64,000 nucleotides of DNA from Beroe forskalii (Eukaryota > Ctenophora > Nuda > Beroida > Beroidae), in NCBI GenBank assembly GCA_011033025.1, contig WFMF01000535.1, positions 49,264 to 113,263 on the forward strand, given 5' to 3'. Within the stretch, counting starts at the first letter, position 1. Each line of letters begins with the position of its first letter. Below are positions 19,413 to 58,364 of the stretch, one piece after another. Made by a program: the position numbers and the translations under genes. The notes beneath the pieces are model-generated. The model searched no databases and was not told where the DNA came from. It was given only the letters and a program-made list of their open reading frames with translations.

Positions 19413-19459
19413 TGGGCCCGGAATATATTAGCAACTATTTTGAGTAGTTTTCAGTTTTA

Positions 19460-19999: not shown

Positions 20000-20094
20000 C
20001 ACGCCCCTTAACTTCAACATGAAACTCGCCCAAGCTTAATCGTGCGCAGCTCACTGCCTGTTAGTGTTAATGACACTGACCTGCAGTGGGCAGC

Positions 20095-20284: not shown

Positions 20285-20289
20285 GCTCA

Positions 20290-21185: not shown

Positions 21186-21195
21186 AAATCCTGAC

Positions 21196-21360
21196 CATGT
21201 GCTAGGAGTGATCGAATGTTAGGCAGCTGGGTCGTGGTCAGAATAAAACCATTTCTAATTAGCTGATGAGACGAACCTTCTCTGTCTCATCAGCTAATTA
21301 GAAATGGTTTAATTCTGACCACGACCCAGCAGCCTAACATTCGATCACTCCTAGCACATG
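21196..21360. mobile_element. Hairpin H5 (about 75-bp arms)
   Basis: CATGTGCTAGGAGTGATCGA... pairs with ...TCGATCACTCCTAGCACATG almost perfectly, around a tip near 21278 (GAGACGAACCTTCTCTGTCTC). It marks the inner end of the right arm. It differs in sequence from H1-H4 but has the same architecture. Confidence 0.85.
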
Positions 21361-37500: not shown

Positions 37501-37539
37501 CCATGGCACTCTTCACTCTGGCCCTAATCGCTGTGTTCA

Positions 37540-38452
37540 TCGCGGGCAGGTAGCAGCATTCAAAGTATGATATCACCCTCCCGTGGTTATAATTCGGGCG
37601 TGATAATTATACAGCCCTTTAAAAGTACTGTATAGTGACGTATAGAATAATTGATACTGTAATTGGTAATGCTCCTTGATTTGATTCTCCTCAATGCGAG
37701 TACTCACCCCATTTAAATAGTACCAGCGTGGTCAAGTGGCAGCTTGGTCAAGTGGTAGCTAGGTCAAGTGGCAGCTTGGTCAAGTGGTAGCTTGGTCAAG
37801 TGGTAGCTAGGTCAAGTGGCAGCTTGGTCAAGTGGTAGCTTGGTCAAGTGGCAGCTTGGTCAAGTGGTAGCTTGGTCAAGTGGCAGCTTGGTCAAGTGGT
37901 AGCTTGGTCAAGTGGCAGCTTGGTCAAGTGGTAGCTTGGTTAAGTGGTAGCTTGGTCAAGTGGTAGCTAGGTCAAGTGGCAGCTTGGTCAAGTGGTAGCT
38001 TGGTCAAGTGGCAGCTTGGTCAAGTGGTAGCTTGGTCAAGTGGCAGCTTGGTCAAGTGGTAGCTTGGTTAAGTGGTAGCTTGGTCAAGTGGCAGCTTGGT
38101 CAAGTGGCAGCTTGGTCAAGTGGTAGCTTGGTCAAGTGGTAGCTAGGTCAAGTGGCAGCTTGGTCAAGTGGTAGCTTGGTCAAGTGGCAGCTTGGTCAAG
38201 TGGCAGCTAGGTCAAGTGGCAGCTTGGTCAAGTGGCAGCTAGGTCAAGTGGCAGCTTGGTCAAGTGGCAGCTTGGTCAAGTGGCAGCTTGGTCAAGAGCC
38301 AGTTTGGACAAGTGGCAGCTTGGTAAAGAGCCAGTTTGGACAAGTGGCAGCTTGGTAAAGAGCCAGTTTGGACAAGTGACCCAAAACTTTGTTCTGACCT
38401 GGGCAATATCTGTAAAACCTCTCCAATATTGAAGCAATCCCCTCGCGGGCAG
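37540..38452 (+). repeat. 10-bp direct repeat TCGCGGGCAG bounding intron 1
   Basis: TCGCGGGCAG is the end of exon 1 (37540-37549, then GTAGCA) and also the end of the intron (38443-38452, then TGACGCGG of exon 2). The two splice sites therefore look like the two copies of a target duplication. Confidence 0.85.
37725..38378 (+). repeat. GGTCAAGTGGCAGCTT minisatellite filling intron 1
   Basis: About 40 copies of a 16-bp unit. The last few are variants (AAGAGCCAGTTTGGACAAGT). Overlapping 60-130 codon frames are artefacts of the array. Confidence 0.9.
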
Positions 38453-38761
38453 TGACGCGGCGGAGTACACGTACGAGCCCACTACGGGCGCGTGCAGAGG
38501 CGGGGCAAACCCGAAATACAACGCCGGCCTGACGTTCCACTCGGACTTGTTGTGCGAGGACCGGTGTAACAGAGACGAGAGGTGCTCCGGCTACTCGATG
38601 GGCCCCTCCTGGTGTGAGACCTACTACTCTGAGGGGGCTGTGGGGGACGGCAGATCCCAGTACACCTGCATGGTAAAGAGAGGTGAGGAACGCTGAAATG
38701 GGCACTGGTGCATCTAGAAATGAGTACTGATGGATCTAGAAATGGACACTGGTGCATCTAG

Positions 38762-38835
38762 AAATCTATATTTTGTTACCATGACAACGGGTTACCATGA
38801 CAACGGGTTACCATGACAACGCGTTATCATGACGA
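38762..38835 (+). repeat. GTTACCATGACAAC repeats in intron 2
   Basis: Four copies of GTTACCATGACAACG, degenerate versions of the dispersed GTTACCATGGTAAC palindrome, next to the acceptor of the exon at 38862. Confidence 0.8.
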
Positions 38836-39041
38836 CATGAATGCTAACTTCCTCCCCACAGAGGTGCTGGTAGCTCCCCCCATAATCTGCCCTGCTGGAC
38901 TCTACACCTTTGAACTAAGCTGCGCGGAGTGCGAGCCTGGGACTTACAGCGAGGAGGGCGCGGACTCCTGCACACCCTGCCCGGACTCTAAGTTCAGTGC
39001 TGCAGGGGCTGCCAGTGCTGAGGATTGCTTCCTGAGAACAG

Positions 39042-39960
39042 GTGAGGTGTATTCTATAACCCAAATCAAACCCAGGTGTTGCTAGGTGTGTTGCTAGGTG
39101 TAATGTGTATTGGTAGGTGTGTTGCGTGGTGTGTTGCTAGGCGTGTTGCTAGGTGTATTGCTAGGTGTATTGCTAGGTGTGTTCCTAGGTGTGTTCCTAG
39201 GTGTGTTCCTAGGTGTGTTCCTAGGTGTGTTGCTAGGTGTGTTGCTAGGTGTGTTGCTAGGTGTGTTGCTAGGTGTGTTGCTAGGTGTGTTGCTAGGTGT
39301 GTTGCTAGGTGTAATGTGTATTGCTAGGTGTGTTGCTAGGTGTGTTGCTAGGTGTGTTGCTAGGTGTATTGCTAGGTGTGTTGCTAGGTGTGTTACTAGG
39401 TGTGTTACTAGGTGTGTTGCTAGGTGTGTTGCCAGGTGTGTTGCTAGGTGTGGTGCGTGGTGTGTTGCTAGGTGTGTTGCTAGGTGTGTTGCTAGGTGTG
39501 TTACTAGGTGTGTTGCTAGGTGTGTTGCCAGGTGTGTTGCTAGGTGTATTGCTAGGTGTGTTGCTAGGTGTGTTGCTAGGTGTGTTGCTGGGTGTGTTGC
39601 GTGGTGTGTTGCTAGGTGTGTTGCTAGGTGTAATGTGTATTGCTAGGTGTATTGCTAGGTGTGTTGCTAGGTGTGTTGCTAGGTGTGTTGCTAGGTGTGT
39701 TGCTAGGTGTGTTGCTAGGTGTGTCGCTGGGTGTGTTGCCAGGTGTGTTGCTAGGTGTGTTGCTAGGTGTGTTACTAGGTGTGTTGCTAGGTGTGTTGCT
39801 AGGTGTGTTGCTAGGTGTGTTGCTAGGTGTGTTGCTGGGTGTGTTGCGTGGTGTGTTGCTAGGTGTGTTGCTAGGTGTGTTGCTAGGTGTGTTGCTAGGT
39901 GTGTTGCAACCAGTGCTTCCTCAGAATAGGTGAGCTGTATTCTATAACCCACATCAAACC
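39042..39960 (+). repeat. GGTGTGTTGCTA minisatellite framed by two copies of a splice donor
   Basis: About 70 copies of a 12-bp unit at 39072-39906. The array starts about 30 bp after the donor of the exon ending at 39041 (AGAACAG|GTGAGGTGTATTC). It ends at a second copy of that exon end and donor (TCCTCAGAATAGGTGAGCTG near 39916). Long open frames on both strands (up to 246 codons) are artefacts. Confidence 0.9.
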
Positions 39961-40431
39961 CATCATACCGATAATACCCATCATGTCCGCACTGAGCTGA
40001 ATTCATTGTGAAGTTTAAACCATGACAGTCCCTGCCATGTAACAATACGAAAACTTCAGCTAGAATAGACGTTTATGCATCCGGATCAATGTCTGCTGAA
40101 CTAACCTGTGTCGATGACGAAACAGGAGCTGAGATAGCAACTGCGTACTTTTCAAATGATGGTGCGACTACCGTAGTAAGTAGAAGAGGAGGCGACTTAA
40201 AATAACACTGCATCTTCTTAATAACACTACAGAAAAGTCTCAGATTTGTTATTTAAAATTTGGTATTTTAAAACTAAAACAGCACATTCCAGGAAGCCAG
40301 TGCAACTTATAAAGCCACGCTGTCTTGTGACGACCCGACCTGGGTCTGCAGTGCTGCAGGATACCATTCAGTTTCTGTTGATGTACCTGTTCCTGTGTTC
40401 ACCGGGGAGTTCGAGAGGAGCTCACAGCTTA

Positions 40432-40433
40432 TG
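40432..40433 (+). other. GC-AG intron donor (paralogue uses GT)
   Basis: The exon 40293-40432 ends CAGCTTAT|GCAAGT. The paralogue ends CAGCTTAT|GTAAGT at 53460. The exons are nearly identical, so a T-to-C change at +2 made a GC donor, which matches the known GC-AG consensus. Confidence 0.75.
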
Positions 40434-40444
40434 CAAGTTGCTTT

Positions 40445-40660
40445 ATGTTGCTATTGGTTGCTAGGATATGTTATGAGTTGCTAGGATATGTTATGGGTTG
40501 CTACTGCTAGGGTAAGCAATGGGTTGCCAGGATATATAGGATGGGTTACTAGACTATGGGTTGCTAGGATATGGGTTGCTAGGATATGGGTTGCTAGGAT
40601 ATGGGTTGCTAGGCTATGGGTTGCTAGGATATAGGATATGAGCTGCTAGAATATGAGTTG
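40445..40660 (+). repeat. GGGTTGCTAGGATAT repeats
   Basis: About 12 copies of a 15-bp unit. A shorter version is in the matching intron of the paralogue (53480-53640), so it predates the gene duplication and then expanded independently. Confidence 0.85.
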
Positions 40661-40869
40661 CGTGCCATCTTCCAATGTTTCTAACGTTTGTAACACACAG
40701 AGACGAGGGAGCTAGTGTCGTGTTGGACAGTGGAGTGAGGGATACTACGCTTCACGTGCAGTGGTACAAGGCCGCCAGAAGATCCGGCAGAAAGGCAGTC
40801 AAGCAGGTCACACCGTCACTATTCTTACTAGACACCGTAACTAGATACCATTACTTAAGTACTAAGTAT

Positions 40870-41045
40870 GTGTTGTTAGGTGTGTTGGCTGTTGCTAGAT
40901 ACCGTTACTAAGTGTGTGTTGCTAGGTGTGTTATTCAGTGTGCGTTGCTAGGTGTGTTGCTATGCGTGTGTTGCTTGGTGTGTTGCTAGATACCATAACT
41001 AAGTATGTGTTACTAAGTATGTGTTGCTATGCGTGTTGCTTAGTT
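40870..41045 (+). repeat. GTGTGTTGCTAG-type repeats in intron 6
   Basis: Degenerate units of TAAGTATGTGTTGCTAGGTG, related to the array at 39072-39906. Confidence 0.75.
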
Positions 41046-41280
41046 ACAGGTTAACACACCCTCTTGTTGATTGACGGATCGTCCTATCCTCAGGGTGTTT
41101 TCTCTATCGAAGTTACTGAGGCTGGGCGGTATGAAGCCAGTATTTCCCGTTGCCCTGACAACACAGACCACGCCAAAGTAAACAAGGCTTTCAATGTGGT
41201 GACGCGGGACCCTGACTTCCTCCCTCCTGCGGATAAGATGTGCTACGTGTTCGGAGATCCGCACGTCACCTCATTCGACG

Positions 41281-42350
41281 GTCAGCAACTAATCCCTGCT
41301 GCTACTTCCAAATAAGCAAATTATCCCTGCTGCTACTTCCAAATAAGCAAATTATCCCTGCTGCTACTTCCAAATAAGCAACTAATCCCTGCTGCTACTT
41401 CCAAATAAGCAACTAATCCCTGCTGCTACTTCCAAATAAGCAACTAATCCCACTTCCAAATAAAGCAAATTATCCCTGCTGCTACTTCCAAATAAGCAAG
41501 TTATCCCTGCTGCTACTTCCAAATAAGCAACTAATCCCTGCTGCTACTTCCAAATAAGCAACTAATCTCTGCTGCTACTTCCAAATAAGCAACTAATCTC
41601 TGCTGCTACTTCCAAATAAGCAACTAATCCCTGCTGCTACTTCCAAATAAGCAAATTATCCCTGCTGCTACTTCCAAATAAGCAAATTATCCCTGCTGCT
41701 ACTTCCAAATAAGCAAGTTATCCCTGCTGCTACTTCCAAATAAGCAAGTTATCCCTGCTGCTACTTCCAAATAAGCAACTAATCCCTGCTGCTACTTCCA
41801 AATAAGCAACTAATCTCTGCTGCTACTTCCAAATAAGCAAATTATCCCTGCTGCTACTTCCAAATAAGCAACTAATCTCTGCTGCTACTTCCAAATAAGC
41901 AACTAATCTAGTAATCCCTGCTGCTACTTCCAAATAAGCAAGTTATCCCTGCTGCTACTTCCAAATAAGCAAGTTATCCCTGCTGCTACTTCCAAATAAG
42001 CAACTAATCCCTGCTGCTACTTCCAAATAAGCAACTAATCTAGTAATCCCTGCTGCTACTTCCAAATAAGCAACTAATCTAGTAATCCCTGCTGCTACTT
42101 CCAAATAAGCAACTAATCTAGTAATCCCTGCTGCTACTTCCAAATAAGCAACTAATCTCTGCTGCTACTTCCAAATAAGCAACTAATCTAGTAATCCCTG
42201 CTGCTACTTCCAAATAAGCAACTAATCTAGTAATCCCTGCTGCTACTTCCAAATAAGCAACTAATCTCTGCTGCTACTTCCAAATAAGCAACTAATCTCT
42301 GCTGCTACTTCCAAATAAGCAACTAATCTCTGCTGCTACTTCCAAATATT
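41281..42350 (+). repeat. 30-bp minisatellite starting at the VWD exon donor
   Basis: About 34 copies of CCCTGCTGCTACTTCCAAAT + AAGCAACTAAT. The first unit begins at the donor itself (ACG|GTCAGCAACTAATCCCTGC), with no unique intron sequence between. Confidence 0.9.
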
Positions 42351-42359
42351 CCACTCTAT

Positions 42360-42826
42360 CACGCCATGCACGACCCTGTCATCCTAACCTGTGAATCACG
42401 CCAGATACAGTCATCCTAACCTGTGAATCACGCCAGATACAGTCATCCTAACCTGTGAATCACGCCAGATACAGTCATCCTAACCTATGAATCACGCCAG
42501 ATACAGTCATCCTAACCTGTGAATCACGCCAGATACAGTCATCCTAACCTGTGAATCACGCCAGATACAGTCATCCTAACCTGTGAATCACGCCAGATAC
42601 AGTCATCCTAACCTGTGAATCACGCCAGATACAGTCATCCTAACCTGTGAATTTAAGTCCTATTTGATTAAATCATCCTAACTAGTGAATCAATCCAGAT
42701 ACAGTCATCCCAACCTGTGAATCACGCCAGATACAGTCATCCTAACCTGTCAATCACGACAGATACAGCCATCTTAACTTGTGAATCACGCCAGATACAG
42801 TCATCCTAACCTGTGAATCACGCCAG
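42360..42826 (+). repeat. 32-bp minisatellite ending in a splice acceptor
   Basis: About 14 copies of AGTCATCCTAACCTGTGAAT + CACGCCAGATAC. The last unit ends CACGCCAG and that CAG is the acceptor of the exon at 42827. Every unit therefore contains a copy of the acceptor core. Confidence 0.9.
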
Positions 42827-42984
42827 GTCAGTACTACGACTTCCAAGGAGATTGCACGTATGTGCTAGCAATGGATTGCAGCCAATATCACTGGTACATC
42901 TACGGCAAGTTCACGAGCTGTGGAGACAGTGTGACGTGTCTAACTTCTCTGACAGTAGTGACCCGTGAGTTTATAACGCGTTAT

Positions 42985-43395
42985 GTGCCACTGCAGCGTC
43001 ACCATGACAACATGTTACCATGAAAACCTGTTACTACTTACTATGATATCGCGTTACCATGACAAAACGTTACTTTGATAACGCGTTGCCATGACAACAC
43101 AATACGATTGAAACGCGTTCTCATCACAAGCAATACAATACCATGGCAACGCGTTACCATGACAACTCGATACTATAACAGGTGACAACGCGTTACCATG
43201 ACAACACGCTACGATGAAGTGTTACCATGGCAACGCGTTGCGTGACAAAGCGTTGTCATGATAACGCGTTTTCCTGAAAGCGAATTGCCATGGTAACGCG
43301 TTGTCATTTCTATTTCTATTTGTATGTTCCCAGGATATCATGTTAATTGTACCTTTACCAGGACGTTACCATGGCAACCCCCAGGTCAGCCGCAA
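42985..43395 (+). repeat. Cluster of CCATGGCAACGCGTTACCATGAC units
   Basis: About 15 degenerate copies of GTTACCATGACAACGCGTT. Many are near-perfect X-box-like palindromes. A short ATTTCT run lies at 43308. Confidence 0.75.
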
Positions 43396-43612
43396 CCAGT
43401 CTACTCGGCGAGTGTTGGGAGCTTGTAGAGGAGGTGCTAACCCTGACGAAAAAGCGGGCAGGATCTACCACAGGGATTTGAAGTGCAAGGAGCGGTGTGA
43501 CGCGGACGTGGCCTGCTCCGGGTACCTCCACAGTCCACGAGGCTGGTGTGAGACCTACTTCTCAGCGGGGCGGTGGGAGACGGCAGAGCGGAGTACCAGT
43601 GCAACACCAAAG
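43385..43612 (+). pseudogene. Decayed PAN-like exon inside the VWD intron
   Basis: Homologous to the exon at 38453-38682: ACRGGANPDEKAGRIYHRDL, CKERCDADVACSGYLHSPRG and WCETYFS, then the homology shifts frame to GAVGDGRAEYQCNTK because one G is missing in the GGGG run at 43567-43570. The flanking VWD exons (42827-42964 and 43864-43971) join in phase without it, so it is a stray copy in the intron. It has a CCCCCAG acceptor and a GTGGGA donor. Confidence 0.8.
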
Positions 43613-44077
43613 GTGGGAAGTCTCTGCTTTAATAGAATATTCGGTGGGAAGTCTCTACTTTAATAGAATTATAGGCGGGAGTCTATTCCTGCTAGTCCTG
43701 GAATTATACGTGGAATTCTCTGCTATTTCAAGTAAACACGTGGAACTGTCTGCAACAGCTGTGCTACAAATCACCTCATTAAATGAGATAAGATAAAATT
43801 CAAATCTTCCCAATGAGGAAAGTATTCTATATTTTCTGCAAAGCTAAGAATGTTTTATCGCAGTGGGAATGCAGTACGGAGTTGCAATGTTTGAAGTGAA
43901 GCGAGGTTTTGGAATCAACGACAATGGCTTGATGAGAGGCGTGTCCCAAGGCGAAACCATGACAATCGGAGGTTTGAAAACTCCGCAAACTGCTGACATA
44001 TTCTGATGTTTCCAAGTTAATTTCCGGCAACTTATATCTCGCGTAATCAGTATTCTTCTGCTTAACTTGTTTCTCAA

Positions 44078-44160
44078 CTCTAGACCATTTCAGACGCGAC
44101 TATAACCTTACAAGGTTAACTCTAGACCGTTTCAGACGCGACTATAACCTTTGACGGGAT
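44078..44160 (+). repeat. Tandem duplication of a splice acceptor
   Basis: TCTAGACCATTTCAGACGCG (44080) and TCTAGACCGTTTCAGACGCG (44120) are two copies of the acceptor and first exon bases (ACGCGACTATAACCT). Only the second leads into the full VWD exon. Confidence 0.9.
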
Positions 44161-44569
44161 CCTGATGGAGGTCGACAACGGAGAAGTTCACTCTTCATTG
44201 GGACGGTCTGACCTTCGCTAAAGTAACGCTCGCTGAAGGGAGCAAGTCGTGCGGACTCTGCGGCGACAACGACGGTAAGCAGAATGACTGAAGAGTTCGA
44301 CCTTGTATCCAAACCTTGTCAGAGTAGCTACAGAGTTCTTCCTTGTAACGTATTGCTACTGTTTTCAAAGTAACACGCGTTGCCTTATCAACGCCATGTT
44401 GCCTTGGTAACCACATGTCGCTTTGGTAACTCTTAACGCAATGTTTCAGGAGATAAAAGCAACGATCTCGACCATTTCATGTACCCATCTAGCAACCCAG
44501 ACATGACATTCGCTGACACTTGGGCAGTAACACATACTTGTAAGTAACAGCTTCATTCGTTTCTCTTAA

Positions 44570-44985
44570 TCATAGCAACGCATTAGTTAGCACATAGCAA
44601 CGCATTAGTTAGCACATAGCAACGTATTAGTTAGCACATAGCAACACATTTTTTAGCACATAGCAACGCATTAGTTAGCACATAGCAACGTATTAATTAG
44701 CACATAGCAACGCATTAGCTAACACATAGCAACGCATTAGTTAGCACATAGCAACGCATTAGTTAGCACATAGCAACGCATTAGTTAGCACATAGCAACG
44801 TAATAGCTAACACATAGCAACGCATTAGCTAGCACATAGCAACGTATTAGCTAACACATAGCAACGCATTAGTTAGCACATAGCAACGCATTAGTTAGCA
44901 CATAGCAACGTAACGTATTAGCTAACACATAGCAACGCATTAGTTAGCACATAGCAACGTATTAGCTAACACATAGCAACGCATT
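44570..44985 (+). repeat. 22-bp minisatellite TAGTTAGCACATAGCAACGCAT
   Basis: About 19 copies fill the intron between exons 44450-44539 and 44996-45050, ending about 10 bp before the acceptor. Confidence 0.9.
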
Positions 44986-45454
44986 TTCACCCCAGATGGC
45001 GCGTGTGGAGTTAACCCATTGAATGGAATTGAAGTGACAGACGAAGCAAAGTGAGTTAAAGAAACTTTAAATTTAAACTCTTATGAAACGCAGTTCTTCC
45101 TTCTTATTTCTATTTTCTCGCATGCTTCCCCCACCGTTTGTCAATATGAAGTACTTGAGAAGTAACCAGCCCCCCTACAGAGCTAAGGTGACAGAGACTC
45201 TTGAGAGCAGTACATTGACCGGTCTGGTGGAGTTCTCTCCTGATTTCCTGCTGGCTGCAGCCCATGATCTGCAGAATGGGGCGGACTCCATCTTCATAGG
45301 CGACCGATACATGGGTAAATACATGGGTTCTTATTACCGAGTTAATGGGTTCATTACTTCCTCATCAAGTAGCATTTCATTCCAAAATTAGTAATCTTTA
45401 GTGAATGAGAATTATCAGGGTTTTGAGAAGTTTTTGAAAGAAATAAATACATGG

Positions 45455-45640
45455 AGTGTTCGTGCATGCGCGCCATGATGGCTCAGCTGAAGGACAATGC
45501 TGGGATTACATTCGATCGGTGGGACATCGACATGAAGTGCCCATCACCCAGAGATGTAAGCTATGAATTTAGATATGAGGGGGTTTTACATTCAGTGTGG
45601 AGAGGGGTTTCAAGGGGTTCAGAGTTTTATGATAGAACAA
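45455..45640 (+). other. Gene-conversion tract shared with 57903-58060
   Basis: The 101-bp exon is identical to the paralogous exon at 57903-58003, and the following 60 bp of intron are close. Neighbouring exons of the two genes are far more diverged. Here the acceptor is TACATGG|AGTGTT (no AG before the exon) instead of TTCCACAG|AGTGTT. Confidence 0.8.
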
Positions 45641-45794
45641 CCCTCAAACAATATAAAAACAATAAAACCATGAAAAGAAACAATTAAAACCTCTAAAAAC
45701 CTGGTCTGCTCCTCAGGTCCTAGTGGAAGGCGTGAGACTGGGATGTCCTTGGACGAAAGCCAACGCTCCGTACTACAACCCAGTCCTCAACTGA

Positions 45795-47191
45795 TTCAAG
45801 TCTCAACAGTCTCAGAGCTTTCAGCCGAGACAGCGTAGTGGGACTGTGCCTGAATTAGCATTCAAATAGCAAAAAAGACTAATTGATTTCAATTAATTCT
45901 TGTCGCGAAATCTTTATATTATAGCTTTATAGTTTTTTAAATCAAGCTTAGATATTAAACCGAGCTTTTTGATAGTTAACAGAAGTTTAAAACTTTTAAG
46001 ATATGGAATCCATATTTAACTTAAGATAATCTCTTAAACTTAACAATTGTTATAATTGTGTGAATAATCAGACAGAAGTCGGGAAAACTTGCAGATTCTG
46101 ATCTGTGTGATATTGGGATTAAAAATATCTTAGATTTTTGCGAGATTTCCTTCTGATATCGATATGTTATTATATTGTTTTATTTCATGTTTTCAATGAA
46201 TATATTATTACTACAGTTCTTTTGAACGAAAAATCATTAAATGAAATGTTCGTTTCAATTTGTTCTCTGACTTGAACGTTAAGTAATTGCTTGGGTGTTG
46301 GAAAGTTTATGGGAGGTTTGTGGCATGAAATAAAAGAGATGAAATCGAAAAGAAAAGGGTGAGGGGCCTCGAGTTTCCATTAAATTTATTTTATGCTTAA
46401 ATAAACAGCAATCCCAACGGGTAACTCCTGATTCGATTGGAGAATTAACTTCCTTTCCACATTACCTAATAACATCGCCTAATGAGAACATGACAAAGGC
46501 TGTAATGGCCAGTCTGGAGTCTGGTGGGGGATTAGATTACGTTTTGCAGGGATTTTGCACCCTGCAGATAATAGAATTTGTAATGAAATAATGCGCATTT
46601 TTATCAATACACTTTGATATTACAGCTCGAATATCAGCTGCGAAATAATGGTTTGACTTGCCGATAAACTAATTATTCTGACTATGTTGACGCTTGTGTT
46701 GATACAATCGTATTAGTTTTCTTGCTTCTAAATTTTTCTATATTTGGTCTCGTTATTTTGCTTGCTTTTCAGTTTATCACACTTTCCAAAAGTTAAGATT
46801 TCATAATTTATCCTTATTTCGAATAAACGAATTTCAAGTATAACAAGTGGTCATCTACTAATAGTAATATCATTACACTCTTAAATTGAATATTTCTCCA
46901 CAAAATTTTCTCAATTTGACGGTTCTCATCTGCTTGAACTATGACAGACTATTGGAGTTTGAACTATTGGAGTTTGAAGAACATCAACTTTTTTATTACG
47001 TGTCCGAAGAAACCTCCATTTCCGTCTTTTTCGAGCTCCTCGTCTCTTTTCTTGACTGCTTTCATCCACCTCGGTATGATGAAAATTGATAAGTTTCAAG
47101 AGAAATTTTATTTGTGAAGATTAATTGCTGCTTGGAAAACTTTGAATTGATTGATGATTATAAACTATATTTGTGATTTCTCCCAAAAGAA
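45795..47191. other. Spacer between the two VWD paralogues
   Basis: AT-rich, with no clear repeat array, which is unusual here. It should hold the 3' UTR of the first and the promoter of the second gene. A 67-codon frame at 46886-47089 has no domain. Confidence 0.5.
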
Positions 47192-50100
47192 ATGTTGGTG
47201 CTGCTAGTAACGACCTTTCTCTTTGCTTCGTTGCACACAGGTAAGGAGAAATTAAAAGAATTTCCGTAGATTAAAATTAGAAACGTTTATTTTCTTTATT
47301 TCGCCCATTAAAGGATCTGAGATTGCACTGATGACCTATAAAAATGAGAGTGATGACGGGATCAGAGACGTGCTGTTGTGATCAGTTTCTTGAAGACCCT
47401 CAGTAAATAACTCATGTTTTCAGGGAGTTCTCGGGAATGGATGCAAAGATAACGAGATAATCATGGAATATGGAGGTTTGTATTATTTTCTGAGTTGTGG
47501 GTCAGTGGAGACTGTCAGTGTCGAGAGTCATGCGTTCGAACCCCGTCAAGGGCAAAATTTCAATGTGGCACATTTAAATTTTGCCCTTGACGGGTCAGCC
47601 CATTGACAATGTGCTAACTAAAAGAAAAGATAAATAGAATAGGATAATGATGCTAAGTTGGTGACAATGATGATCGTGTTTAGACAACCATTTAATTCGC
47701 CAACAAAGCATTCTATCAACTCTTAACCATAACTCATTAAACAAAGCATTCCATTGTAGAATGTAGAGAGGATTCCATAATAACCGGGCTAAATCGCAGG
47801 GAAGCAAATCTGCATTGATTGCGGAGAGGGGTGGAAGCCTAACGCAGACAAAAGCAACTGTGTGCAAGGTAAGACAACAGGGACAAAAACAACTGGGTTA
47901 TCATGGCAATCACCATGGCAACAGATCATTAACAATTACTGTAACACATTAGTAGAACTTCCGTGGCTTATTTAAAGTTTCTTATCTCACTTCCACCAAC
48001 CACCTTGGTTACCATGCATATAATCAACCTGGTAACACACTTCCACTCTGGTTACCATGCATTTAATCGCCCTGGTAACACTACCAACATGATAACCATA
48101 CAATCAATCCCCCTTGTAACACTACCACCATGGTAACCATGGTAACTTATCCCCTTGGTAACGCAGAGGAAGGCGAAGGGTGTCCCCCTGGTACCTACAT
48201 CGGAATAGCCGCTGACTCCATGTGCTCCCCGTGTGCGCTGGGCTCGTGGTCAGCGGGAGGTGACTTCGTGTGCACGACGTGTCCTGAGGGCTACACGACG
48301 CTGAGCACCAGGTCCACTTCCCCTGATGACTGTGTGGAGGAAGGAGACGAGGAGGTCACAGGTGAGAAGGAACTAGGAGTAACTAGTAGCAACCAGTTGT
48401 TGTAACCAGTAGTAACTAGTAGCAACCAGTTATTGTAACCAGTAGTAACTGGTATCAACTATTTGTAAGCAACTATAATCTGTAAGTTCTAGTAACAGGT
48501 AACTTGTAGTCTAGTAGTAACAAGAAGTGACCAGGATGTGACCAAGACCTGAAGAGACCTTGGGTAACAAATGGTAAATATTAGTAACTTGTGGTTACAC
48601 TAATAGTCATTTCATCACCATAGTAACGTTGTGATATTTCAGAATTCTGTGCTGCTGGAACGCGGTATGACACTAACACAAGAGACTGTGTCTTCTGCGA
48701 ACCTAACACTTACAGCGTGGTATGTACTCACTAACTCTTTACTTTACTTTGACTTACATTCACCATGGTAACCTTGATCATCATGGTAACTCTGTTCAGG
48801 GTGGTATAGCAGTAACCATGGTAGCCCCCTTCGGGGTGTTATATCAATCACCATGGTAATCCTAGTCAGGGTTGTATACCAGTCGCCACGGATACCCTGG
48901 CTAGGTTGGTATAGGTACCAGTAACCATGGTAACTCTGTTCAGGGTGGTATACTAGTCGCCATGGTAACCCTGGCTAGGTTGGTATACCAGTAACCATGG
49001 TAACTCTGTTCAGGGTGGTATACCAGTCGCAATGGTAACCCTGACTAGGTTGGTATACCAGTAACCATGGTAACTCTGTTCAGGGCGTTATACCAGTCGC
49101 CATGGTAACCCTGGCTAGGTTGGTATAGGTACCAGTAACCATGGTAACTATGTTCAGGGTGGTGATAGAGTGCTCTCCTGCACACCATGCCCAAAAGGCT
49201 TCATCTCTGACGAGGGAGCAGTGAGCGTTGACGACTGCGTTCTAGGTACGATGTCCCCGATATCTGCAAATTTCATAATTTATCTCTGGATAAAGCTGAA
49301 ACTAGTTTGGTACAATTTAAACAAGCGCAGAAATCCAAGCTTCGCCATTTGTCGTAGGTACCAATTTAATAAATATCTTTTCAACGCAGGTCCCTGCGGT
49401 GCCGGAAACTTCGCAAAGGACGATGCTTGCGAAGTCTGCCCTCCCAACACCTTCAATCCGCTGGAGGATGCCACATCTTGCAGAAACTGCCCAGTGGGCA
49501 TGGTATCCCCTGAAGGATCCACCAGCGAATCAGACTGCTCCTTCGGTAATGTGTTCCCATGGTAACCACCATGACAACCCTTCAGTTTAATGTCTTCATC
49601 TTTATATGAGCTGATTAATCCAATCCTAGCTAGGGTAGAACAAGAAGTATTCCTGAGTTTCCCTGACCCCTCTCCCCCAGCTGCGTGCAGTGCTGGGGAC
49701 CACATGACTGAGTCCGGGTGTCAGCAGTGTCCGGCGGACTCCTACAGCGGGGCCGGGGCTGCTGCCTGCTCTCAGTGCCCTCGGGGAATGAAGTCAGCCC
49801 CGGGATCCACCTCTCAGGACGACTGCTACCACGGTAAGTACACTACTCAGAGTCCATCATGTGAAACACACTAATTCTTAGAAACCCTACAGTTTAAACT
49901 TATAAGCCAGATGGCTCCCAGACAAGCTCCCTCTTGAATGACCCTGCATTCGCAGAGGCAGTGCCCGGCAACTGGGGGGAGTGGGGGGAGTACAGCGAGT
50001 GCGCGGCGGAGTGCGGCGAGGCGGGGCTCCGCACCAGAACGCGGCAGTGCGACAACCCGGCCCCGGCTCACGGGGGAAATGCTTGCGCAGGGGAGGACAC

Positions 50101-53100
50101 CGAAACTGCGGAGTGCCAGGGAGAACCTTGCATAGGTGGGTAGAGTATACCTTATAAGGCATGTATACCTCAAGGCATGTATACCTTATAAGGCATGTAT
50201 ACCTTATAAGGCATGTATACCTTATAAGGCATGTATACCTTATAAGGCATGTAAAATTCTACCAGAGTGTAATATTTACTGATGAGATATTGCTCACTCT
50301 GCAGCAGGGATTAAGGAGGACTTGCAGAATTTTTTGATGCAAGATCTGGAATAGACAGTCAATTGGATGGCATTTGTTGAACAAGAAACACGTTATCATT
50401 CGCCCCTGTTTTCAAACACAAGGAAATGTCATTAATCATTTTATTGATGTCAATGTTGTAACGATATTACAGTTTGGGCAAATGATGAAATCCTATCACT
50501 AATCGATACCTCCGATTAGAGGTAAATGATTTATTAGGGTTAGGGCTGATGCCCCTTCCTTTCTCCAACAATCAAGAATAGAGATCTCTCTCATAAGCCG
50601 CGGCTTCACCGAGTACACTGTTCTGTGTACCGCGTGTAAGTACACCGAATACGATGTACACCGTGACACTGTGTGCTGGATAATGTCAGAACGTCCCAAG
50701 CTGTCACGGCAGGTTGAGACAGAGGACCATGGCGGACAAGCCTTCATTTTACACTCCACAAATCTAGCATGTATTAGAAGAAAGCCAAATTTCAGGATGA
50801 ATCGAACCAGTTTTGTGTCTTATAACTTTTTTACCTTTGTGTCTTATAACTCCTAACGTTCCCTCTGATTGCAGTGCCCGGCAACTGGGGGGAGTGGGGG
50901 GAGTACAGCGAGTGCGCAGCGGAGTGCGGCGAGGCGGGGCTCCGCACCAGAACGCGGCAGTGCGACAACCCGGCCCCGGCTCACGGGGGAAATGCTTGCG
51001 CAGGGGAGGACACCGAAACTGCGGAGCGCCAGGGAGAACCTTGCTCAGGTGGGTGGAAGTTAACATTTTGGAAATTCAGGGCATTTATTACAGGTTTGAG
51101 CAACCAATGGTAGCCTATTGTGACCAGTTGTAACTAGTTATGGCCAGTAATAACCTGTAGAAACACATATAGTTCGTCACCATGGTAACATCACGATATT
51201 TCAGATTTCTGTCCGGCTGGTAAACGGTATGACACTAACACAAGAGACTGCGTCTTCTGCGAAGCTAACACTTACAGTATGGTAAGTTCTCACTGACTCA
51301 CTTCAATAACCATGTTTAGGCACGCATACCAGTCACCATGGCAACTCTGGTCGGGGTGGTATACCAGTAACCATGGTAACCCTTCATGTTGGTAGACCAG
51401 TCACCATGGTAATTGTGCTCAGGGTGGTATACCAGTCAACCATGGAAACAATGTTCAGGGTGGTACACCAGTAACCATGGTAACAATGTTCAGGGTGGTA
51501 TACTAGTCACCATGGAAACAATGTTCAGGGTGGTATACCAGTTACCATGGTAACCCTTGTCAGGGTGGTATACCAGTAACCATGGTAACTCTGTTCAGGG
51601 TGGTGATGGAGTTCTCTCCTGTAAACCATGCCCAAAAGGCTTCATCTCTGACAGAGGAGCAGTGAGCTTTTACGACTGTATTCTAGGTATGATGTTCCAT
51701 CTGTTCTCAATATCTGCAAGTTTCATAATGTATCTGGATAAAGCTCAAACTAGTGTCCTAACTACTACAGAGTCAGAAGTGAAAGAGCAGAAATCCAAGC
51801 TCCGCCGTTTGTCGTATCTATTCAATACCATCCCAACGCAGGTCCCTGCGGTGCCGGAAACTTCGCAGAGGACTATGCTTGCGAAGTCTGCCCTCCGAAC
51901 ACCTTCAATCCGCTGGAGGATGCCACATCTTGCAGAAACTGCCCAGTGGGCATGGTATCCCCTGAAGGATCCACCAGCGAATCAGACTGCTCCTTCGGTA
52001 ATGTGTTCCCATGGTAACCACCATGACAACCCTTCAGTTTAATGTGTTCATCTTTATATAAGCTGATTGTTCCAATCCTAGCTAGGGTAGAGCTATAATT
52101 ACTGATCCCAGTTTCCCTGACCCCTCTCCCCCAGCTGCGTGCGGTGCTGGGGACCACATGACTGAGTCCGGGTGTCAGCAGTGTCCGGCGGACTCCTACA
52201 GCGGGGCCGGGGCTGCTGCCTGCTCACAGTGCCCTCAGGGAATGAAGTCAGCCCCGGGATCCACCTCTCAGGACGACTGCTACCACGGTAAGTACACTAC
52301 TCAGAGTCCATCATGTGAACACACTAATTCTTAGAGGCCTTACAGTTTAAACAGCCAGATGGCTCCCAGACAAGCTCCCTCTTGAATGACCCTGTGTTCG
52401 CAGAGGCAGTGCCCGGCAACTGGGGGGAGTGGGGGGAGTACAGCGAGTGCGCCGCGGAGTGCGGCGAGGCGGGGCTCCGCACCAGAACGCGGCAGTGCGA
52501 CAACCCGGCCCCGGCTCACGGGGGAGATGCTTGCGCAGGGGAAGACACCGAAACTGCGGAGTGCCAGGGAGAACCTTGCATAGTTGTCTGTGAAGGTTTG
52601 AATGCTGCTTGAGACATGAAGGCGGGATGAGATGGTTCGACTGGAGGTTGAAAGTTGGCAACTTGACAAAAGTCTAGAGACCCCAGCATCTGCTACTCTT
52701 CTAGTTAACCCACTAACGAATGAACATCGCAGTTGTCTGTGAAGCGGGTTCCTACAGGGGAGAAGACAACACCTGTTTGACCTGTGAGGAAAGCACATAC
52801 AGTCTGGGAGGGGCTGACTTCTGTACGCCCTGCCCTGACGCTAAGTTCAGCTATGCAGGAGCTGCCAGCCCTGACGAGTGCTACCTTAAAATAGGTGAGT
52901 TCGATCGACTCTAGAACCCCAATCATTCCCGCCCAGACTTGAATCCATTTTGAAGTATAAACCATGTCATTCCTTGCCAGACGTTGTCTGGCCCATATTG
53001 TAAATCAACGGGTCGTGCAGAGGGCCAGCCATTCCTGCCATTCCATTGGTAACAATGCGAAAACTGCAGCTAGAATAGAGGTTTATGTATCCGGATCAAT

Positions 53101-56100
53101 GTCTGCTGAACTAACCTGTGTCGATGACGAAACAGGAGCTGAGATAGCAACTGCGTACTTTTCAAATGATGGTGCGACTACCGTAGTAAGTAGAAGAGGA
53201 GGCGACTTATAATACACTGCAACTTTTGAATAACACCCTTGAAGTTGAATGACACTGCAGAAAAGTGTCAGATTTGTTATTTAAAATTTGTTATTTTAAA
53301 ACTAAAACAGCACATTCCAGGAAGCCAGTGCAACTTATAAAGCCACGCTGTCTTGTGACGACCCAACCTGGGTCTGCAGTGCTGCAGGATACCATTCAGT
53401 TTCTGTTGATGTACCTGTTCCTGTTTTCACCGGAGAGTTCGAGAGGAGCTCACAGCTTATGTAAGTTTCTAAGGGCTGCTTCGGGTTGCAAGTATAAAGG
53501 TTGTTAGGATATTGGTTGCTAGGGTATGGGTTGCAAGGATATTTTATTGGTTGCTAGGGTATATTATGCTATGGGTTGCTAGGATATAGGTTACCAGGCT
53601 ATGGGTTGCTAGAATATATGCTAAGGGTTGCTAAGATATTATTCGTTGTCATGGTAACCATGTTCCTGTTTCAGTGAAGAAGGAGTTGAGGTTGCCACGC
53701 TGGACAGTGAGATAACAGACAGCACTCTGAACGTACAGTGGTACAAAGCAGGACGGACACATGGCCGAGTGGCGCTGGACACTGTGAGTTATTCCAGTAT
53801 TAAGCTTACCAGCCTTTTATCTGTGTGCAACAGGGACAGTTCGAACTTTACGCGTCTTTTGTGTGCGCGGCACATTGACATATGAATAACACCTCGCGCA
53901 AAAGACGCGCACACAAAAGACGCGCACACAAAAGACACACACACAAAAGACGCGCACACAAATGACAAAAGACGCGCACATTACAGTTCGAACTGTCACC
54001 GTAACCTTACCAGGGTGTAAGATCTATCACAGTAACAGAAGCTGGTAGAGGGTTACCATGACAACCTATTTCAGGGTGTAAGATCTATCACAGTATCAGA
54101 AGCTGGAAGAGGGTTACCATGACAACCTATTTCACAGTATCAGAAGCTGGTAGAGGGTTACCATGACAACCTATTTCAGGGTGTAAGATCTATCACAGTA
54201 TCAGAAGCTGGTAGAGGGTTACCATGACAACCTATTTCAGGGTGTAAGATCTATCACAGTATCAGAAGCTGGTAGAGGGTTACCATGACAACCTATTTCA
54301 GGGTGTAAGATCTATCACAGTATCAGAAGCTGGTAGAGGGTTACCATGACAACCTATTTCAGGGTGTAAGATCTATCACAGTATCAGAAGCTGGTAGAGG
54401 GTTACCATGACAACCTATTTCAGGGTGTAAGATCTATCACAGTATCAGAAGCTGGGTTACCATGAGGGTTACCATGACAACCTATTTCAGGGTGTAAGAT
54501 CTATCACAGTATCAGAAGCTGGTAGAGGGTTACCATGACAACCTATTTCAGGGTGTAAGATCTATCACAGTATCAGAAGCTGGTAGAGGGTTACCATGAC
54601 AACCTATTTCAGGGTGTAAGATCTATATCAGAAGCTGGTAGAGGTTACCATGACAACCCTATTTCAGGGGTGTTAGATCTATCACTGTATCAGAAGCTGG
54701 TAGGAGGGTTACCATGACAACCTATTTCAGGGTGTAAGATCTATCACAGTATCAGAAGCGAGGGTTACCATGACAACCTATTTCAGGGTGTAAGATCTAT
54801 CACAGTATCAGAAGCTGGTAGAGGGTTACCATGACAACCTATTTCAGGGTGTAAGATCTATCACAGTATCAGAAGCTGGTAGAGGGTTACCATGACAACC
54901 TATTTCAGGGTGTAAGATCTATCACAGTATCAGAAGCTGGTAGAGGTTACCATGACAACCTATTTCAGGGTGTAAGATCTATCACAGTATCAGAAGCTGG
55001 TAGAGGGTTACCATGACAACCTATTTCAGGGTGTAAGATCTATCACAGTATCAGAAGCTGGTAGAGGGTTACCATGACAACCTATTTCAGGGTGTTAGAT
55101 CTATCACAGTATCGGAAGCTGGTAGAGGGTTACCATGACAACCTATTTCAGGGTGTAAGATCTATCACAGTATCAGAAGCTGGGAGGTACACAGCCCAGA
55201 TATCCAGGTGTCCCCAACACAGCGCAGTGTACAAGGCATATAACGTGGTTACCAAGGTAACAGACTTCACTACTGATGACAAAGTGTGTTCTGTCTACGG
55301 AGATCCCCACGTCAGGACATTCGACGGTAAAATTACTGAAAAATACACCGAAATGATCAGCGAAATGATTTTACAATTTATCATCACGGCTTACTGTAAC
55401 TTAAATAACTTGAGAATCCTCCATATCATCTCCCACTTTTGAACCCATTGAACCCCAAATCTCCCTTTTCAACCCACTTTTTGAACCAAATCCCCAGGAG
55501 CCCCCTTTCATTCCCCAAACCCATTAAACCCCAAACCTACTTTGTTTTTTGAACCCATCAACTGGTATATTTACGGGAGGTCTGAGTCTCTTACCAAGGG
55601 CAGTGCACCTACGTGCTGGCGATCAGCGTGCTCAACAGAGCAGGTAGGTTTTCAACAAGCTGGGGGTAACATGTATCAACTTCCATAGAATTTTATCCCC
55701 CCCGGGGGGAGGTTATAGAATGTTACGAAATGAGTTGAAATCATAAGTAATCACTGACCTGTCATTTTCTAGAACAGTAAATTAAGGAATTACCAAATAT
55801 TATTTCCCTGTAGGCCCAGGCAACAACTTGAAGATGTTCGAAGTTAAGCGAGGCTTTGGAATAAACGACTCTGGAGTAATGAAAGGCGTGGCTGAGGGAG
55901 CAGAACTTTACATAGGAGGTAGACCTATTTGTTAGCTTCATACCCCCAAGGGGGGGGGGGGGAGGCAAACCTTTGTTAATCCTAGTTTACAATATTATTA
56001 TTAATTTGCACTGTAAAATGAATAGTGGAAACATTTGGAAGCATTGGGAGAAAGATACGAAAGAAAATCTAAAACTCTAAGAGGGAGTATGGACGTAATT

Positions 56101-58364
56101 GATATAATTAAGGCAATAAATAAACTGAAACAATAATTGAAAAGTAAATTCGATATGAAACTAAAACAACAAGCTATTACAAAAGCACACATGATACACG
56201 GGAACAGAACACACAACCTGAAACAGCAATGAAAATAATTCAATGTACAATATACAAATCAATGTATAATGTACAATTACAATGTACAATACATTACATA
56301 AAGTACAATACATTGTATAATTCATGAATTACAAGGTACCATGTACAAAGTACATTACACAAAGTACAATACATCACATTGTACATAACACTGATGTTCC
56401 AGGAACTAAGATAACGTTTGACGGCATCTACCTGGTGTCAGACCTCGGAGAAAGTGGTGTCAAGGTCTTCTGGGACGGCCTTTCTTTCGCACAAATCACC
56501 GTTCCCGAGGGAACCCGGTCTTGCGGAGTGTGCTCCGATAACGACGGTTAGTTTATAACTCAGTCATTTTACAGGATATGTACTTATGATAGGTACTTAT
56601 GATAGGTAACTGTATGAAATGCTACTAACAATCATTTTATTGAGACAATCAGTATGGAAAGTGCTGACTTAGCCCTTATGTCAATCTTTGAATTAGGAAA
56701 TCGATATTCAGTATTTTGTTATGTTTGTAGTATACCCATACACCTCGATAGATAAGACATTGGATTGTTATCTATTTCATGTCTCAAAGTAGTTTGTTCC
56801 AGGAAACACGGGTAATGACCTCCAACACTACCTCTTCACTAACATGCTGGGACTGTCGTTTGTAGATACCTGGGCAGTGACTGCACACAGTGAGTTGTTA
56901 CCATGGTAACCATCAGGTTACCAGGGTTACCATGCTATAAATGCCGTGATATCAGTGAAAACTACCTTCTATCTTCCTATGAAGACTTTAGTCAATGTCA
57001 TGGCTTGGCTTAATATTAACATTCTAATTCTTCATTGATAATTGTTATTCCTGATTCTAATCCCTAATTTACAGAAGGGGGATGTGGACAAAACAGCGTA
57101 ACACAGAGTAACGAGGTCGAGAACAGCATGAAGTGAGTCACAACCCTACTTAACTCAGTGACAACAGTATCTACCCTACTTTAAACTCAGTGACAACAGT
57201 ATCTACCCTACTTAACTCAGTGACAACAGTATCTACCCTAATTAACTCAGTGACAACAATATCTACCCTACATAACTAAGTGACAACAGTATCTACCCTA
57301 CTTAACTCAGTGACAACAGTATCTACCCTACTTAACTCAGTGACAACAGTATCTACCCTACTTAACTCAGTGACAACAGTATCTACCCTACTTAACTCAG
57401 TGACAACAGCATCTACCATACTTAACTCATTGACAACAGAGCTGTTCCCATTTGATGTGTGAAACCACTTAACACTGCGAATCTGACACCATCATGTTAC
57501 TCTGACACCAGATATTAACACTGACACCAATTCTTCACTCTCACAAATTATTTACGCCGACACCACTTCACTCAGGATCAAAGAGACTTTGAACAACGTT
57601 TTCGACTCCAACGACGTGTGGTTGGACGGCTTTATCAACGATGCTGCCTTCGACAGAGAGTCGTCTAATAAATTCATGGGTAAATCGCGACTCTCAAAGT
57701 CAAATATTCGAAATATGCGAATACCAGCAAATTCCGCTGTGATCATATTGTTTGGTAAACCGAAAGGAAGGATTTTAAGATTGCTAAATTCTGGTCCAAT
57801 CCCTTTGGCATGAATGAAGCCAAACAATGCCAAAGATTTCTCTAGTAAATAATAAGTTACAACGCATACTATTTGGAATGCCATCATTGACATGTTCCAC
57901 AGAGTGTTCGTGCATGCGCGCCATGATGGCTCAGCTGAAGGACAATGCTGGGATTACATTCGATCGGTGGGACATCGACATGAAGTGCCCATCACCCAGA
58001 GATGTAAGCTATAATTTAGAGATAAGGGGGTTTTACAATTCAGTGTGGAGAGGGATTTCAATACAACGACATGAACTGTCCCACACCGAAAATGGTTGCA
58101 TTTGGAATTAGAGGCAAAGCGTTGGAGGCATGGGGAGCAGAAAAAATCAGTGGCAGCTTTGTGTAAGTGGCAGTCTGTACGCCGCGCAAACATACGCCGC
58201 GCAAACAAAACTGCAGTTCGAACTGTCACCGTTACAGTTTTATCGTTGATTACGTGCATTGTTAACAATCTCTAAAACAAATCTCTTTCCAGATGCTGGT
58301 TGAAGGAGTCAGACTGGGATGCCCTTGGACGAAAGCCAACGCCCCATTCTACTTAATCAAATAG
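47192..58364 (+). CDS. Secreted protein with Cys-rich repeats, three TSP1 domains and a VWD domain (28 exons)
   Basis: Exons: 47192-47240, 47428-47475, 47800-47868, 48167-48361, 48643-48719, 49158-49245, 49390-49545, 49681-49833, 49956-50135, 50875-51048, 51205-51281, 51599-51686, 51842-51997, 52135-52287, 52404-52595, 52733-52894, 53070-53185, 53321-53460, 53675-53783, 55152-55326, 55587-55643, 55814-55918, 56403-56546, 56813-56889, 57075-57132, 57575-57679, 57903-58003, 58293-58364. Sum 3276 nt, 1091 residues, all phases consistent. Signal peptide MLVLLVTTFLFASLHT; EGF/ephrin-receptor-like repeats (CPPGTY, CPEGY, CPKGFISDEGAVS); TSP1 three times (NWGEWGEYSECAAECG ... RTRQC); beta-rich region; VWD (CSVYGDPHVRTFDG ... 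FEVKRGFGINDSG ... SCGVCSDNDG ... WAVT); C-terminus GCPWTKANAP. Extracellular adhesive or matrix role is inferred from the domains. Confidence 0.9.
47495..47605 (+). mobile_element. tRNA-like SINE fragment with perfect 19-bp inverted repeat
   Basis: GTGGGTCAGTGGAGACTG resembles an A box, and GCGTTCGAACCCCGTC is a near-perfect B box. This is followed by CCCGTCAAGGGCAAAATTT (47542-47560) and its exact inverse (47576-47594). It lies in intron 2 of the TSP1/VWD gene. No anticodon stem is evident. Confidence 0.4.
47885..48165 (+). repeat. X-box-like palindrome cluster in intron 3
   Basis: Repeated GGTTACCATGCATTTAATC and ACCATGGTAACCATGGTAAC units. The last one ends at the acceptor of the exon at 48167. 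Confidence 0.75.
48643..50135 (+). repeat. Internal exon block, copy 1 (five exons incl. TSP1)
   Basis: Exons 48643, 49158, 49390, 49681 and 49956 are each matched one to one by exons 51205, 51599, 51842, 52135 and 52404, intron sequence included. A block of about 1.5-2.5 kb was duplicated within the gene. The extra TSP1 exon at 50875 is a third copy of the last exon. Confidence 0.9.
48765..49157 (+). repeat. Minisatellite that copies the acceptor TGTTCAGGGTGGT
   Basis: Units of about 80-90 bp (CCATGGTAACTCTGTTCAGGGTGGTATACCAGTCGC...). TGTTCAG|GGTGGT is exactly the acceptor and first exon bases of the exon at 49158, so each unit carries a decoy acceptor. The homologous intron (51300-51598) shows the same. 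Confidence 0.9.
50135..50255 (+). repeat. 18-bp repeat TATACCTTATAAGGCATG at a donor
   Basis: About six copies start 12 bp after the donor of the TSP1 exon ending at 50135 (CATAG|GTGGGTAGAGTATACC). Confidence 0.85.
51029..51031 (+). other. TSP1 repeat 2 lacks a conserved cysteine (Cys to Arg)
   Basis: In the exon 50875-51048 the codon in GAG-CGC-CAG (AERQGEPC) is CGC, whereas the two sister exons have TGC (AECQGEPC). TSP1 domains have six cysteines in three disulphides, so one bridge is lost in this repeat. Confidence 0.8.
51205..52595 (+). repeat. Internal exon block, copy 2
   Basis: Partner of 48643-50135. The exons for GPCGAGNFA..., AACSAGDHMTESG... and TSP1 are almost identical to copy 1, so the duplication is recent or the copies are being homogenised. 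Confidence 0.9.
51300..51598 (+). repeat. Minisatellite copying the acceptor (second copy)
   Basis: Units of about 45 bp, CAGGGTGGTATACCAGTAACCATGGTAAC. The final CTGTTCAG is the real acceptor at 51598. Confidence 0.9.
52584..52744 (+). repeat. 12-bp direct repeat TTGTCTGTGAAG bounding an intron
   Basis: TTGTCTGTGAAG closes the TSP1 exon (52584-52595, then GTTTGA) and also opens the next exon (52733-52744, after CGCAG). The genomic DNA upstream thus contains the exon-exon junction as if already spliced. Both sister TSP1 exons end at CATAG or CTCAG followed by GTGGGT instead. Confidence 0.85.
52978..53032. mobile_element. CAGACGTTGTCTG-family fragment
   Basis: CCAGACGTTGTCTGGCCC followed by a weakly paired tail ending AGGGCCAGCC, in the intron before the exon at 53070. 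The paralogous intron (near 40030) lacks it. Confidence 0.5.
53833..54000. mobile_element. CAGTTCGAACTG-family element with internal ACACAAAAGACGCGC repeats
   Basis: Left end GGGACAGTTCGAACTTTACGCG and right end inverted GGTGACAGTTCGAACTG (to 54000). One arm has tandem CGCGCACACAAAAGA units. It lies in intron 19, just before the 62-bp array. Confidence 0.8.
54012..55151 (+). repeat. 62-bp minisatellite made from an acceptor and the exon start
   Basis: About 18 copies of a unit with GGGTGTAAGATCTATCACAG, TATCAGAAGCTGGTAGAGGG and TTACCATGACAACCTATTTC. The last copy runs straight into the VWD exon at 55152, whose first 33 bases (GVRSITVSEAG) are the repeat. Each unit carries CTATTTCAG|GGTGTAAGATC, an acceptor followed at 4 bases by a GTAAGA donor-like site. 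Confidence 0.95.
55559..55643 (+). other. Shortened and reordered VWD segment
   Basis: The paralogue has one 138-bp exon (CTYVLAMDC ... HWYIYGKFTSCGDSVTCLTS). Here only 57 bp (SYQGQCTYVLAISVLNRAG) fits as an exon (55587-55643). The matching HWYIYG piece (AACTGGTATATTTACGGGAG) lies upstream in the intron, i.e. in swapped order. About 27 residues with three cysteines are missing from this VWD. Confidence 0.6.
56300..56398 (+). repeat. AAAGTACAATACATTGTACA repeats
   Basis: Degenerate TACAATGTACA units between 56250 and 56395, just before the acceptor of the exon at 56403. Confidence 0.7.
57133..57440 (+). repeat. 30-bp minisatellite starting at a donor
   Basis: About 10 copies of CTACTTAACTCAGTGACAAC + AGTATCTACC. 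The first copy is CATGAA|GTGAGTCACAACCCTACTTA, so it begins at the donor, and each unit holds a CAGTGACAACA echo of it. Confidence 0.85.
58178..58236. mobile_element. CAGTTCGAACTG-family fragment in the last intron
   Basis: TACGCCGCGCAAACATACGC and GCAGTTCGAACTGTCACCGTTA, the same right end as at 53985-54004 and 34950. Confidence 0.65.

Follow-up and report, generated by a model that had tools for sequence, protein, structure and literature searches.

Minisatellite arrays in introns of two VWD genes of the ctenophore Beroe forskalii, several of them holding splice-site copies

We analysed a stretch of 64,000 nucleotides from the ctenophore Beroe forskalii, called the window below (contig WFMF01000535.1, positions 49,264 to 113,263, that is C620:49264-113263 of the 216-Mb assembly G000). 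Two neighbouring genes in it, A and B, code for proteins with VWD domains, and their introns are rich in tandem arrays. A total of 29 arrays was counted in the window, located in 21 of 42 introns; three of them straddle an acceptor and one ends exactly on an acceptor (42826). Arrays occupy 49% of the intron bases (41 introns), 1.7% of the exon bases and 16% of the remaining window. The arrays are real, and several of them hold copies of splice sites. The two genes are the following:

37503..45794, + strand: gene A, about 16 exons, VWD protein, 3' part with in-frame stops
47192..58364, + strand: gene B, 28 exons, open frame of 1090 amino acids with Ephrin_rec_like, TSP_1 and VWD

The exon borders were rebuilt without RNA from the reading frame, GT-AG signals, protein relatives and splice scores, and these scores were trained on the introns of the window itself. 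In gene B the frame is unbroken through 28 exons with GT-AG borders, and a Pfam search returned seven families, among them Ephrin_rec_like, TSP_1 and VWD. Its best full-length relatives are ctenophore proteins, one from Mnemiopsis (P0002, 38% identity over 97% of the query) and one from Bolinopsis (P0004, 34% over 100%). Two loci of the same genome, C403 (open frame of 1714 amino acids) and C308 (675 amino acids), align with almost the whole part of gene B from exon 16 onward, and the array-bearing acceptor of exon B20 falls inside this alignment. Most gene B joins from exon 16 on match both loci, and the repeats have no coding copies there. At join 20/21 gene B is short of a few residues compared with C403 and C308, and join B21/22 is not backed by them, as both have a whole stretch that is missing from gene B. 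These relatives have long uninterrupted frames (C403:558001-564000, locus L022; C308:32001-34500, locus L023), against the 28 exons of gene B.

Exons 1-8 of gene A read cleanly. The exons at 43376-43612 and 44136-44274 show single-base length differences from their relatives, as judged by eye; the reading frames are interrupted from this point, and 45457 is a poor acceptor. The 3' part of the gene may be decaying or misassembled. For the first of these exons an initial guess of 43334 was dropped in favour of 43376-43612 after comparison with C403 and C308. About 160 bases of the two genes (45454-45613 in A, 57902-58061 in B) are 97% identical, where other matches between them reach 67-88%, and this near-identity suggests gene conversion.

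The arrays and duplications that lie at or near splice sites of the window, as delimited by Tandem Repeats Finder (TRF) or by direct comparison, are listed below.

39076..39907, + strand: 12-bp array, 70.6 copies, in intron A3, between copies of the exon 3 end and donor at 39026-39074 and 39914-39962
41284..42348, + strand: 31-bp array, 33 copies, beginning 3 bases past the end of exon A7, donor not repeated in the units
42378..42826, + strand: 32-bp array, 13.8 copies, TRF end at the acceptor CAG of exon A8
44076..44151, + strand: two-copy duplication at the 44135 acceptor, including 16 exon bases
48782..49163, + strand: 35/70-bp array straddling the acceptor of exon B6, with 6 exon bases inside the array
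51326..51604, + strand: 35-bp array, 8 copies, straddling the acceptor of exon B12, arranged as at exons B5-B6
54011..55183, + strand: 61-bp array, 17.3 copies, straddling the acceptor of exon B20 and extending 32 bases into the exon
57143..57439, + strand: 30-bp array, 9.8 copies, starting 10 bases past the end of exon B25
247..320, + strand: 18-base duplication at a putative acceptor at 310, 17/18 identical, 56 bp upstream

A first-pass annotation of this DNA had described the units of three arrays in gene B as copies of an acceptor together with the first exon bases. At exon B20 (54012-55151) the splice scores bear this out, since the array holds 17 upstream AGs whose scores fall no more than 3 bits below that of the real acceptor, and most of these decoys have the same score as the real acceptor, 10.0 bits. 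Splicing after 54074, 54908 or 55090, the three upstream copies that were tried, would lead to an early stop; with the last copy, at 55151, the frame remains open. At exon B6 (48765-49157) the description holds for part of the units, with five upstream AGs within 3 bits, and not for every unit as had been stated: two types of 35-bp unit alternate (the best TRF period is 70), and the junction motif TTCAG/GGTGGT is present in one type only. At exon B12 (51300-51598) it holds for most units (8.0 copies; the array takes in 6 bases of the exon, and five of its upstream AGs are within 3 bits). The arrangement at exon B12 is probably a segmental copy of that at exons B5-B6, to judge from their likeness.

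Several sites of gene A also agree with what had been proposed. The array at 39042-39960 lies between two copies of an exon end and donor, as the 49 bases that run from the exon end through the donor into the intron reappear on the far side of the array with 45/49 identical. The CAG of the last unit at 42826 is the acceptor, with the TRF array ending exactly on it. The acceptor at 44135 is duplicated in tandem in two copies, 33/34 identical at 42 bp upstream, and the duplication takes in the acceptor and 16 exon bases. A similar duplication had been proposed for an acceptor at 310; 18 bases are duplicated there, and the acceptor itself is putative, since it belongs to a gene in which no Pfam family was found at E 0.001. 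The two arrays whose first unit was said to be the donor itself turned out differently. At 41281 the array merely abuts the donor, because similarity of the units to the first stretch begins only at 41284 and GTCAGC is not repeated; at 57133 the TRF start lies 10 bases into the intron, and the donor agrees with the next unit at 8/9 bases, which is too little to call. Both cases are adjacency and not copies.

A palindrome, GTTACCATGGTAAC (with at most 2 mismatches), is a local motif common to arrays whose units differ otherwise. There are 52 occurrences in 37503-58364, 41 of which are inside arrays; the remaining 43 kb of the window has 14, and 288.6 kb of other loci has 5. A function as anchor at splice sites was rejected: among its nine sites outside arrays, three are no more than 20 bp from a donor (1.8 expected) and two no more than 30 bp from an acceptor (2.1 expected).

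Beyond the two VWD genes, arrays likewise take in splice sites, both donors and acceptors, in dynein and myosin genes. This outside sample comprises 133 introns, of which 86 come from 13 dynein contigs, five from a myosin gene (C225) and 42 from an ephrin-like gene (C214). Their borders were set by homology, reading frame and splice scores, and a dynein hidden Markov model contributed 20 candidate introns. For C214 we left out a partial first exon, one exon without a donor and a period-303 array, which consists of duplicated exons and their introns. The following arrays are examples:

C441: 62-bp unit, 25.6 copies, at the acceptor of a dynein exon
C441: 86-bp unit, at a donor
C790: 26-bp basic unit, at a donor
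C277: 40-bp unit, 5.8 copies, at a donor
C225: 34-bp unit, 7.9 copies, at an acceptor of the myosin gene

The share of intron bases in arrays differs among the genes, being 2% in C214 (almost none), 23% in the other outside introns and about 50% in the window. Two segmental copies of the C441 donor array differ within the one assembly, as one forms a single TRF block of 3.0 copies and the other two adjacent blocks of 3.5 and 3.6. The C1024 dynein shares 90% identity with a Mnemiopsis protein across the 501 residues used in the search. For C1024, C194, C790 and C321, tblastn suggests dynein heavy chain genes in which introns are numerous in the 5' half and few in the 3' half.

An apparent position at splice sites could also arise from wrong exon borders or from assembly errors. 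The placing of borders without RNA, by scores trained on the window's own introns, leaves some scope for this, as do the in-frame stops and the one poor acceptor in the 3' part of gene A; in addition, the border of dynein C489 (overhang 55, unit 37) may be one unit off. We nevertheless regard such an error as highly improbable for the set as a whole, since the joins of gene B rest on a 28-exon frame and four relatives, and the borders of C441 and C277 beside the dynein P-loop sit, in our reading, in strongly conserved sequence.

Twelve arrays straddle a junction (3/29 in the window, 9/52 outside), four at donors and eight at acceptors. They extend 6-79 bases into the exon, three of the twelve by 6 bases. 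AG or GT splice signals in the units are evident from the splice scores of the three straddlers in the window and from strict motif counts made in eight arrays. One proposal is that selection retains the copies because they tune splicing as decoys or alternative splice sites. Such a role would suit the exon B20 array, with its decoys mostly equal to the real acceptor, and has a counterpart in human IFI6, where repeat units serve as alternative splice donors according to the account in PMC4526556. The anatomy of the arrays argues against it. The unit length is a multiple of 3 in 1/12 straddlers, so that the other eleven would shift the frame. In the four arrays compared, the exon-derived parts of the units show no consistently better conservation than the intron-derived parts; the differences per site (exon-derived v intron-derived) in a crude ungapped count are 0.039 v 0.007, 0.075 v 0.121, 0.058 v 0.038 and 0.048 v 0.056. 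Among 12 corresponding introns of genes A and B, as paired by us, 11 carry an array in one gene or both, three of these in both, and a similar unit occurs only in A5/B18. Because the exon parts are inconsistently conserved and the corresponding introns mostly lack common arrays, the arrays look young, with no sign of retention as decoys, and we consider selection for decoy sites to be quite improbable.

The arrays of the VWD genes had further been described as not randomly placed. As the main null model, each array was collapsed to one unit and dropped at random, with straddling permitted. Arrays with a period below 9 or a TRF score below 50 were left out of the counts, and the window count keeps the B5 and B11 arrays, which are apparent segmental copies of each other. 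Under this model the window shows no excess: 10/29 arrays span a splice site or come to within 12 bp of one, versus 12.1 expected, the straddlers number 3/29 versus 7.8 expected (P 0.018 for so few), and among arrays with a score of at least 200 the count at splice sites is 7/9 versus 5.1 expected (P 0.15). Non-random placement is therefore not upheld in the window. On this model, the impression of anchored arrays arises because the introns are short (median 218 bp) and the units measure 12-75 bp.

A confined null model, in which the array is kept inside its intron, gave higher contrasts in part. Exact contact in the window was 4/29 versus 0.61 expected (P 0.003), window arrays with a score of at least 150 lay within 12 bp in 8/13 cases versus 4.2 expected (P 0.013), and in a first outside batch 12/30 had edges within 12 bp versus 2.25 expected, with 0/3000 shuffles as high; the non-straddling window arrays gave 7/26 within 12 bp versus 6.3 expected. 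We set this model aside as the main test because it makes straddling impossible, yet straddling occurs, and for this reason the collapsed-unit model was preferred.

In the outside introns the collapsed-unit count omits four C441 introns that are segmental copies, which the confined count retains, and it readmits three low-scoring dynein introns, dropped at first, where the profile chain gave them. Straddlers alone amount to 9/52 versus 5.8 expected (P 0.10). Several other counts weigh against placement purely by chance. Outside the window, arrays that straddle or lie within 12 bp number 15/52 versus 8.3 expected (P 0.005), rising to 13/30 versus 6.4 (P 0.001) at a score of at least 100 and to 11/20 versus 4.9 (P 0.001) at a score of at least 200; in the last class, 8/16 versus 4.0 (P 0.013) is left when C441 is removed. 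For window and outside pooled, arrays with a score of at least 200 give 18/29 versus 10.0 (P 0.0002), or 15/25 versus 9.1 (P 0.005) without C441. Under the confined model, 7/43 outside non-straddlers lie within 12 bp versus 1.9 (P 0.0005), as do 14/69 of all non-straddlers versus 8.2 (P 0.012), both counts with the C441 segmental copies included. This outside excess leaves room for a possible bias towards splice sites, which is modest and not established, and the genes differ.

Such a bias is what would be expected if splice junctions were hot spots that start tandem duplication, for example through breaks at R-loops or at transcription stalled near bound splicing factors. Array edges 7-12 bp from a splice site even in introns above 1,500 bp (C441, C321, C790) point the same way as the outside counts. 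The first-pass annotation had suggested measuring the distance of array edges to splice sites against chance; done here on homology-based borders, the comparison gives nothing above expectation in the window and a modest excess in the outside introns. That excess shrinks when C441 and C790 are left out. C441 is ascertained, because it was fetched first after a profile search displayed its array, and without it the straddlers are 7/45 versus 4.8 and the arrays straddling or within 12 bp are 12/45 versus 7.1 (P 0.02); without C441 and C790 these become 4/36 versus 2.5 and 6/36 versus 3.6 (P 0.13). Over all 175 introns the straddlers are 12/81 versus 13.6, with 25/81 versus 20.4 (P 0.11) straddling or within 12 bp. 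Moreover, several score and distance thresholds were tried, and the overhangs are spread over 6-79 bases, where duplication starting at exon borders predicts unit edges at the border. We therefore hold hot spots at junctions to be unlikely, and a general role of splice junctions as birth places of minisatellites is likewise doubtful, even though the number of arrays with a score of at least 200 that touch or cross junctions is almost double the random expectation. If true, it would point to a break process linked to transcription or splicing, and the exon would have to be chosen correctly among some 18 similar acceptors.

We think that the arrays were probably produced by random tandem duplication in a repeat-rich genome and have been tolerated since the exon-proximal splice site still works. 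Tandem duplication of short segments is very common in genes A and B, about half of whose intron bases lie in arrays, and because the introns are short and the units are 12-75 bases long, chance would often bring a splice junction into the duplicated segment. Where an acceptor is spanned, the extra copies would come to lie upstream in the intron, and where a donor is spanned, downstream. The copy still attached to the exon body would give the correct frame; splicing there would leave the protein intact, and the array would therefore be tolerated and able to expand. From the reading frames we infer that splicing keeps to the exon-proximal copy, and exon definition presumably makes the choice among the copies. 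The spread of the overhangs and the involvement of both junction types are as random duplication predicts. The same explanation is supported by the unbroken frame of gene B, by ctenophore relatives that span 97-100% of it, by window straddling below expectation and by arrays of the same anatomy in amphioxus.

The amphioxus arrays, called mirage minisatellites, are described for Adh3, the globin genes BflGb6 and BflGb9, TnC and PGBD5 (PMC3087553, PMC3902484). Borders of both kinds are duplicated there, and results from reverse transcription PCR are given as suggesting regular splicing (PMC3087553). The Beroe arrays resemble them in that tandem units span the exon-intron boundary, 5' and 3' borders are both duplicated and the units carry AG or GT signals. 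They differ in their host, a ctenophore, in the genes concerned (VWD, dynein and myosin), in being known from sequence alone and in reaching up to 24 strict junction-motif copies, the exon's own included (C441). They are best read as mirage-type minisatellites, a kind known from amphioxus in a host group that is new.

Other systems share part of this anatomy. The IFI6 (G1P3) gene has a minisatellite with multiple splice donors (Turri 1995, as cited in PMC4526556). There too the units carry a splice site, and downstream units are used as donors; in Beroe 11/12 straddling units would shift the frame. The IFI6 unit is reportedly 12 bp, a length that preserves the reading frame. Intron gain by tandem duplication is described for potato RdRp (PMC4974935), and repeats at exon-intron boundaries are described in human (PMC2812944). 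Tandem duplication crosses the intron-exon boundary here as well, but no new intron or gained coding repeats are seen in the gene B joins from exon 16 on, the range compared with the relatives of long open frame. Among ctenophores, a figure of 13% TRF repeats is given for the Hormiphora genome (PMC8527503). Our literature search for ctenophores or the name mirage found no report of such arrays in ctenophores among the papers listed, some of them judged by title, which is no proof of absence.

Other repeats were noted in the window. The region 15657-26090 contains large nested inverted repeats, with 37 arm pairs of at least 100 bases, and the 25 listed pairs are 85-99% complementary; it is perhaps a mobile element or a fold-back region. 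Similar minisatellite units of the GTGGTGTCAG type occur far apart, at 6751-7001 and 59539-60617 of the window and at C441:65699-66347, and some arrays may therefore belong to a dispersed family. Repeats of the ACGCGCACA type adjoin a CAGTTCGAACTG palindrome twice in gene B introns (53832-54000 and 58178-58235), and this pairing is perhaps a small element.

As these data show, intron length has to be taken into account before any mechanism is put forward for arrays near splice sites. Provided that the exon borders are correct, gene B would be a natural test of how the spliceosome chooses one acceptor among some 18 similar copies, and a peculiarity of amphioxus would extend to a very distant animal group.

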